Shown: positions 59,701-60,347 of the stretch, in pieces
Numbering within the stretch: position 1 is the stretch's first letter
Layout of the letters: the number at the start of each line of letters is the position of its first letter
Assembly (NCBI GenBank): GCA_022574595.1
Contig: JACZRS010000004.1
Coordinates: 124,001-188,000, forward strand
Length of the DNA stretch: 64,000 bases
Origin: Planctomycetota bacterium
GTDB taxonomy: Bacteria; Planctomycetota; Phycisphaerae; Phycisphaerales; SM1A02
Reading direction: 5' to 3'
Notes under the pieces: model-generated
The model's input: the letters and a program-made list of their open reading frames with translations, nothing else
The model's database searches: none
Told to the model about the DNA's origin: nothing
Program-made: the position numbers and the translations under genes

Positions 59701-60347
59701 TCGCGCACCCAAAGATCCATGATCCCGCCTTGGTTTACCAGATCATCATCGACCGACTGAATAAAACATGCGTGCGGCTGAGGATGGCTATAGGCATCGG
59801 GCGAAAGTTTCACCTCGCCGGTTGTTGCATCGGCAATCCAATGCCCCTGAGATGGTCCGTTTATGCCATAGGCCCAGTTCAGGCCGGTGTTAAACCACTG
59901 CGGGCTGTTTGGTGCAGCCATCTGGTGTAGCAACATATACGCAAGTTCATCGAAAAACGCCTGAGCGTCCTCGCGCGTATCGAAATAGCCATGCGATTCA
60001 CCCCAATGTCGCCAGCAACCCGCCAACCTATTTATAACATCCTTAACAGACTTTTCGGGTCCAGTTTCTTCAGTGGCACGGGCGACTCGCCCGTGCGTAT
60101 TCTGATTTTCCTCAACGGGCGAGACGCCCGTTCCACTGCCATTTTTCTGCGGCACACCCGCTTTTCTAAAATACTTACTCACCATGATATCCGTAGCAAG
60201 CTGACTCCAATCAGCAGGAATCTCAGCATCGTTCATCTCAAAAACAACACTTCCATCCGCATCGGAAATGCGACTAGTTCTCTTCTCCCATTTAACGGAA
60301 TCAAAGACGTTCTCTGTTGCGGAAGTAAATCGGCGAGTAATTTTCAT
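56712..60347 (-). CDS. nrdJ: Vitamin B12-dependent (class II) ribonucleotide reductase
   Basis: 1211 residues. The enzyme reduces ribonucleotides to deoxyribonucleotides using adenosylcobalamin, so it needs no oxygen. Class II features are [60 protein letters not shown], and [20 protein letters not shown]. The C-terminal cysteine-rich tail, [12 protein letters not shown] and [14 protein letters not shown], is typical for thiol exchange. Residues 70-93 are encoded by a paired-palindrome element (60071-60138) that interrupts the otherwise conserved [10 protein letters not shown]...GPEKSV region. Residues 890-960 are a low-complexity acidic linker. Good homology on both sides suggests the enzyme remains functional. 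Confidence 0.93.
   Translation of the reverse strand: [1211 protein letters not shown]
60071..60138. repeat. Paired-palindrome element A3 inside the nrdJ coding sequence
   Basis: Two ACGGGCGACTCGCCCGT-type palindromes in opposite orientation are framed by CAGTGG at 60071 and CCACTG at 60138. The layout equals the intergenic elements at 22764-22828 and 27468-27532. Read in the nrdJ frame it encodes residues about 70-93 (GTGVSPVEE ... HGRVARATE) without a stop. Confidence 0.9.

Follow-up and report, generated by a model that had tools for sequence, protein, structure and literature searches.

A REPIN-like element in frame in the NrdJ linker of a planctomycete, and a RAYT embedded in valyl-tRNA synthetase as its probable mobiliser

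The window, a stretch of 64,000 nucleotides from a Planctomycetota bacterium, contains a gene for a class II ribonucleotide reductase with a palindromic element inside its reading frame, and three intergenic relatives of this element. The features are as follows.

56712..60347, minus strand: nrdJ, class II (B12-dependent) ribonucleotide reductase, 1211 aa; frame open throughout
60066..60146, minus strand: variable linker of NrdJ, residues 68-94, carrying the element; from the alignment of relatives
60115..60138, minus strand: REP arm, first in the gene, translated SGTGVSPV; repeat match
60072..60096, minus strand: REP arm, second in the gene, translated HGRVARAT; repeat match
22762..22830, no strand assigned: intergenic REP pair of the same family; repeat match and element grouping
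27466..27531, no strand assigned: intergenic REP pair of the same family; repeat match and element grouping
33600..33624, no strand assigned: single intergenic REP of the same family; repeat match and element grouping

The nrdJ element is an inverted pair of REP-type palindromes, in frame and free of stops over residues ~70-93, just as the first-pass annotation had described it (arms 60072-60096 and 60115-60138). Over 24-31 nt its arms were 93-96% alike to those of the intergenic pairs near 22.8 kb and 27.5 kb. The 76-nt strand folded with -45.6 kcal/mol, compared to -22.0 ± 3.3 kcal/mol for 500 mononucleotide shuffles, and the REP palindrome can be read in all six frames without a stop. A comparison with Rfam gave three matches, all far below the gathering score. 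In an AlphaFold model of NrdJ 1-900 residues 70-92 were predicted as coil with a pLDDT below 50, a weak hint at an unstructured loop in a model whose conserved parts scored low as well (mean 70.6).

Across the genome (G000; 4.09 Mb in 31 contigs) the 17-base REP core ACGGGCGNNNCGCCCGT was present at 43 sites, while the reversed control gave none. Together with the strong fold this rules out a chance origin of the nrdJ palindrome. The sites formed 34 groups, two of which were overlaps of fetched loci, so that 32 elements remained; 11 of them are pairs, the nrdJ element being one. Judged by stop-free frames, three elements lie inside long coding frames: the one in nrdJ and two in valS, of which one is a pair and the other a single REP. 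Two others (L061 and L063) are in long open frames yet upstream of likely start codons, and the remaining 27 were considered intergenic because the longest frames there span only 32-133 aa. With 29 of 32 elements outside long coding frames the family is many-copy and mostly intergenic like REPs and REPINs, and it shares with them the inverted pairs and a GTRG-type foot, here GTGG (AGTGGCACGGGCG). The first-pass annotation had proposed to look for further in-frame copies across the genome; this led to the pair and the single in valS, and to no other of the 32 elements.

Two further kinds of repeat were seen in the window. A CTCTCCC-type inverted repeat is located at 60463-60501, just upstream of nrdJ, and at 47580-47618; in the relative G059 this kind forms a translated part of the NrdJ linker, and G283 (L174) may have it in its ValS linker. 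Another short repeat around ATGGATAGCAATCC occurs in several copies with inverted partners (45362-46465 and 9753-9814).

The residues on either side of the insert had been read in the first-pass annotation as otherwise continuous family sequence. This reading failed, as the linker between a 10-residue stretch and TGPE is variable in 60 loci from 59 genomes (including G000). A clean insertion into continuous sequence was rejected on the same grounds. The spacing from KYFRK to NSPQW was most commonly 78 residues, compared to 89 in the window, and the linker of relatives usually had about 17-22 residues, with only four in G055 and G029. Among 80 named NrdJ loci 25 were outside a spacing of 77-79, mostly by plain short or long linkers. 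G036, which has 78% identity over NrdJ, carries QINDDGTPKLDPKTGNVLT where the window has 29 residues of linker. Length and sequence differ at this site, and the objection that all close relatives might share the segment does not hold. In G000 little of the native loop sequence remains, i.e. the insertion was not clean.

Translated repeats of three families were found in the same linker of eight other genomes. The GTGVSPV kind is present in G629 (L177), G039 and G275 (L191), and in a drifted form in G239 (L207); the SRDREGA...LPHGRGS kind in G009, G047 and G043; and the CTCTCCC kind in G059. In addition, G003 has plain tandem repeats there. Of the species in genus g40, five have no repeat in the loop; SRDREGA is present in two, and GTGVSPV and CTCTCCC in one each. 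G629 retains DETGNVP, the right half of the native loop, behind its REP. Over the N-terminal 330 residues G629 and G036 are equally near to the window (78 and 79%). Because G629, being as near as G036, has a REP of its own in the loop, the copies of G000 and G629 are possibly of common descent, and that of G000 need not be very recent. On the other hand, the different spacers and the different frame of the right arm favor separate events. Three NrdJ loci, L182 (G043), L219 and L241 (G050), have about 370-390 additional residues; the stretch before CSEYMF is intein-like in L182 and L219, while L241 was noticed by length alone. These three were excluded from the fold alignment as inteins.

The variability of the linker could raise the suspicion of ordinary drift that came to resemble the repeat, or of an assembly error. 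Yet, both arms match a family of 43 sites and similar inserts are present in independent assemblies, which leaves this explanation a negligible chance. The element could also have been retained for a function, either as an mRNA hairpin tuning nrdJ expression or as a loop co-opted in the protein. The strong hairpin about 200 nt past the nrdJ start codon and the repeated use of the same loop are in line with this idea, but the repeat families differ, most relatives have none and the predicted loop is unstructured, and we regard retention for a function as improbable. We concluded that the nrdJ insert is a genuine REPIN-like element that keeps the frame and occupies a tolerant loop. The proposal of a mobile-type palindromic element translated in an essential-type gene at a loop that tolerates it is thus supported, with the linker being variable in relatives.

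Seven matches to Y1_Tnp were counted in G000 and six were read. Among the six, only the locus at C21:130356-130802 adjoins the REP, with sites at 130270, 130323 and 130831, and provides the family with the cognate RAYT that belongs to a REP/REPIN system. The other five loci read have no such REP site within ~1 kb on either side. This RAYT lies within another gene:

C21:128502-132200 of G000, minus strand: RAYT and its REPs, in frame in valyl-tRNA synthetase (L060); from frame reading and Pfam

The left REP, the HUH/Tyr transposase and the right REPs form one unbroken stretch of the ValS frame. The RAYT has no stop of its own, and from codon -25 to +12 there is no ATG and one GTG. Pfam detected tRNA-synt_1, Y1_Tnp and Anticodon_1 in the single frame of the fused protein; the RAYT scored 27.5 bits with the PF01797 profile at a cut-off of 23. 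H60, H62 and Y125 are invariant in five type-1 RAYTs, the type present in G000, and neither of the small alignments, type 1 or type 2, shows any variation in the two HUH histidines or the tyrosine. The ValS part retains HLGH (residue 60) and RMSKS (residue 850), and it is the single ValS row of G000 among the matches listed in the ValS survey. The insert follows the SDQWYV side of ValS. Without a RAYT the spacing from SDQWY to RDWC was 62-66 residues in five loci, 77 in L176 and 79 in G055 (eight loci fetched, L170 excluded); with a RAYT it was 227-331 residues where measured. The RAYT-free ValS linker of L169 (G055) contains ETSRDC, perhaps the remnant of a type-2 REP.

The kind of repeat in NrdJ was identical to the kind of RAYT in ValS in 8 of 8 genomes that have a RAYT-type REP in NrdJ, with type 1 in G000, G629, G039, G275 and G239 and type 2 in G009, G047 and G043. 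G630 and G631, reached via L191 and L207, were taken to be G275 and G239 by virtue of identical RAYT coordinates. Among 54 genomes for which NrdJ and ValS data were both at hand, a RAYT-type REP was present in NrdJ of 5/10 with a ValS RAYT compared to 0/44 without (p = 8e-5, from hand-tallied input with kinship ignored and the RAYT searches taken to cover all 301 genomes of the ValS survey).

REP copy number tracked the kind of the ValS RAYT in part. REP copies, with controls in parentheses, amounted to 48 (0) in G000, 41 (0) in G629, 75 (2) in G275, 98 (3) in G036 and 27 (1) in G023. For the second kind 71 (0) copies were counted in G009, and G044 agreed with 62 (0). Genomes without a ValS RAYT had 2 (1) copies in G024, 1 (2) in G061 and 2 (2) in G055. 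Not in line were G039 with 7 (2) and G239 with 1 (0). The strict second pattern was low in G047 (1) and G043 (0) despite their type-2 ValS RAYT; G047 had 34 (3) sites of the first pattern instead, and G051 had 72 second-kind sites though its ValS RAYT is of type 1.

Recombination between repeats, or template switching, could also have placed the REP pair in nrdJ without the RAYT. The CTCTCCC-type repeat of G059 and the plain tandem repeats of G003 fit such a process, as no RAYT was found for either and both occupy the same linker. It would leave the agreement of repeat and RAYT kind in all eight genomes and the lack of REPs in NrdJ of all 44 genomes without a ValS RAYT unaccounted for, and we consider it unlikely. 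We favor the view, with a probability of roughly 0.7, that a REPIN-like element resides in the variable linker of NrdJ and that its probable mobiliser is the RAYT embedded in ValS.

The sequence of events would be as follows. A REPIN-like inverted pair of REPs with a GTGG foot landed in the NrdJ linker, before TGPE. Its movement would probably have been brought about by the RAYT that adjoins the same REP and is in frame in valS. As the RAYT frame has neither a stop nor an ATG close by, ValRS probably carries the transposase as one of its domains and presumably stays active as a synthetase. According to the established view, RAYTs copy or move REP hairpins as single-stranded DNA, and the transposase borne by ValRS may do the same. 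The insert in nrdJ would persist because the palindrome is stop-free in six frames, the frame was kept and the loop appears to tolerate about 24 small or polar residues, so that translation would run across the insert and yield an active NrdJ.

For a survey of embedded RAYTs five type-1 (A1) and five type-2 (A2) ValS-embedded RAYTs were aligned and used as queries against the order (301 genomes). The type-1 query gave 54 matches in 45 genomes at E <= 1e-25, and all 54 loci were fetched. In 49 of the 54 the RAYT is in frame with a host gene, i.e. ValS (26), RdgB (11), LeuS (10), MiaA (1) and an AONS/glycine C-acetyltransferase-like enzyme (1). Four were stand-alone, one of them (L264) cut by the contig start, and one (L147) was masked by N and not counted as embedded. 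Type 2 at E <= 1e-20 yielded 109 rows in 70 genomes, of which 29 were read: 16 were in ValS and 13 not inside a host. Among the best 18 of the 109 rows 16 were in ValS. In total, 65 embedded RAYTs were present in 57 of the 301 genomes, 62 of them with host motifs on both sides (L134, L138 and L154 on one side only; L105 duplicates L008). G269 has three, in ValS, LeuS and RdgB. Pfam identified host and Y1_Tnp in nine out of ten fused proteins; the tenth, L149 in RdgB, gave only the host at 1e-4 and no PF01797 match, though it is similar to A1. In a phylum-wide sample of 343 genomes there were 13 type-1 rows outside the order, with frames of 156-632 aa and one of 1011 aa. The type-2 alignment (A2) was set by eye against the motifs of TnpA-Y1 class 3 (NHVH / W[TA] / YV..EQ; Quentin 2018, Table 1 of PMC6006769); some rows deviate (RHLH, DHVH, NHIH, DRQ), and type 2 is a candidate for this class.

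The peptides encoded by flanking REPs depended on the host. ValS-embedded type-1 RAYTs have GTGxxPV on the left in 19/26 cases; those of type 2 have SRDREGA on the left in 10/16 and LPHGRGS on the right in 15/16. The ValS flanks of G043 are not of a recognised REP form. GTGxxPV was found to the left of only 2/11 RdgB-embedded RAYTs, and no recognised REP peptide was found in 10/10 LeuS rows. Two single loci deserve mention. In L138 (G067) the RAYT seemingly occupies a second LeuS site when compared with L135-L137, L139, L140, L142, L145, L146 and L148, and in L266 (G258:C5), one of the 13 type-2 rows read as not inside a host, the RAYT is joined in frame to the C-terminal end of a frame that, named by eye, is cytidylyltransferase-like.

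From codon -25 to +12 of the transposase domain 51/65 embedded RAYTs have no ATG and 28/65 none of ATG, GTG and TTG; a Shine-Dalgarno-like stretch was seen in 4/65. With start codons mostly absent near the domain, most embedded RAYTs seem producible only as part of the host enzyme; by their conserved HUH and Tyr residues they look catalytically intact. It is conceivable that the insert is in the gene but absent from the protein, owing to protein splicing, RNA splicing or ribosomal bypassing, and inteins do exist in nrdJ of relatives, at a different site. Yet, no Hint/intein splicing domain was detected by Pfam at 1e-4 in the ten fused proteins, and the inserts are open in frame in 65/65 cases, a number partly selected for since the cases were recognised through their open frames. 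We judge removal from the protein to be very improbable.

In a tree built from 55 type-1 domains, among them L057 and L147 (the masked one), many deep forks are poorly resolved; the tree needs 11 changes of host label with a possible minimum of 6 and an average of 26.4 in 200 shuffles; its starred branches force at least 3 changes for ValS. The RAYT of G000 groups first with those of G036 and G023 and next with those of G039 and G051. All five are in ValS, which reflects either long residence there or return to the same site. One ancient ValS fusion merely inherited was rejected in view of two RAYT kinds in ValS, the other hosts and the 11 label changes.

For the RAYTs of the order as a whole we lean, with somewhat less confidence than in the case of nrdJ, toward the life of an 'in-frame transposon'. 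They would be passengers without start or stop in tolerant loops of essential enzymes of tRNA and nucleotide metabolism (ValS, LeuS, RdgB and MiaA), in ValS mostly bounded by translated REPs. The hosts would provide a promoter, ribosome binding and selection against any loss that breaks the frame, and the host gene would change over time. Scattered REPs would partly become translated loops as in NrdJ, and loops reused by unrelated elements would be safe harbours.

Di Nocera et al. (2013, PMC3733652) described intragenic GTAG/CGTC REPs in Opitutus terrae, Rickettsia conorii and further bacteria. They are in frame, often as dimers, in genes for DNA repair, tRNA modification and tRNA synthetases and encode 20-30 residues; most GTAG-20 elements of O. 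terrae have a GTGG foot, and different REPs are at about the same recB site in two Xanthomonas (PMC3733652). The in-frame REPs and dimers, the GTGG foot and the reuse of sites are alike here. In contrast, REPs are alone inside genes in that report, while we found whole RAYT genes and, in NrdJ, three repeat families in a single loop; in the text of PMC3733652 that was covered nrdJ and valS do not occur. The first-pass annotation had likened the nrdJ element to the Rickettsia palindromic elements. The workings are similar, as both are palindromes translated in frame in unrelated genes, and the nrdJ element has the in-frame insertion in a coding gene by which those elements are recognised. Yet, by description the Rickettsia elements are ~150 bp long (PMC10969869) compared to 76 bp here, where a matching RAYT is present; the element is a REP/REPIN tied to this RAYT and need not be one of the Rickettsia elements. 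With the RAYT/REPIN system (PMC8049555, PMC6006769) it has in common a Y1 HUH transposase with flanking REPs and scattered inverted REP pairs, but the RAYT of G000 is without start or stop of its own and translated inside a host enzyme. RAYTs have been viewed as single-copy, vertically inherited, 'domesticated' transposases of unknown function (PMC8049555).

In-frame intragenic REPs are already known; the surprising part is the embedded, recurring RAYT in host enzymes. Inteins with homing endonucleases are mobile nucleases situated in frame in essential enzymes and made by translation of the host. The workings are alike in that an in-frame mobile nuclease is involved, while embedded RAYTs are in variable loops instead. 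No report of whole RAYTs inside host enzymes was found in the open-licence literature, taken without supplements, one of which holds the target-ORF list of the 2013 paper.

If most type-1 RAYTs of the order are made only within essential enzymes, this would explain in a simple way, open to testing, why they persist: loss of the frame would kill the host. The reused loops would then be natural maps of the sites in NrdJ, ValRS, LeuRS and RdgB that accept whole extra domains.
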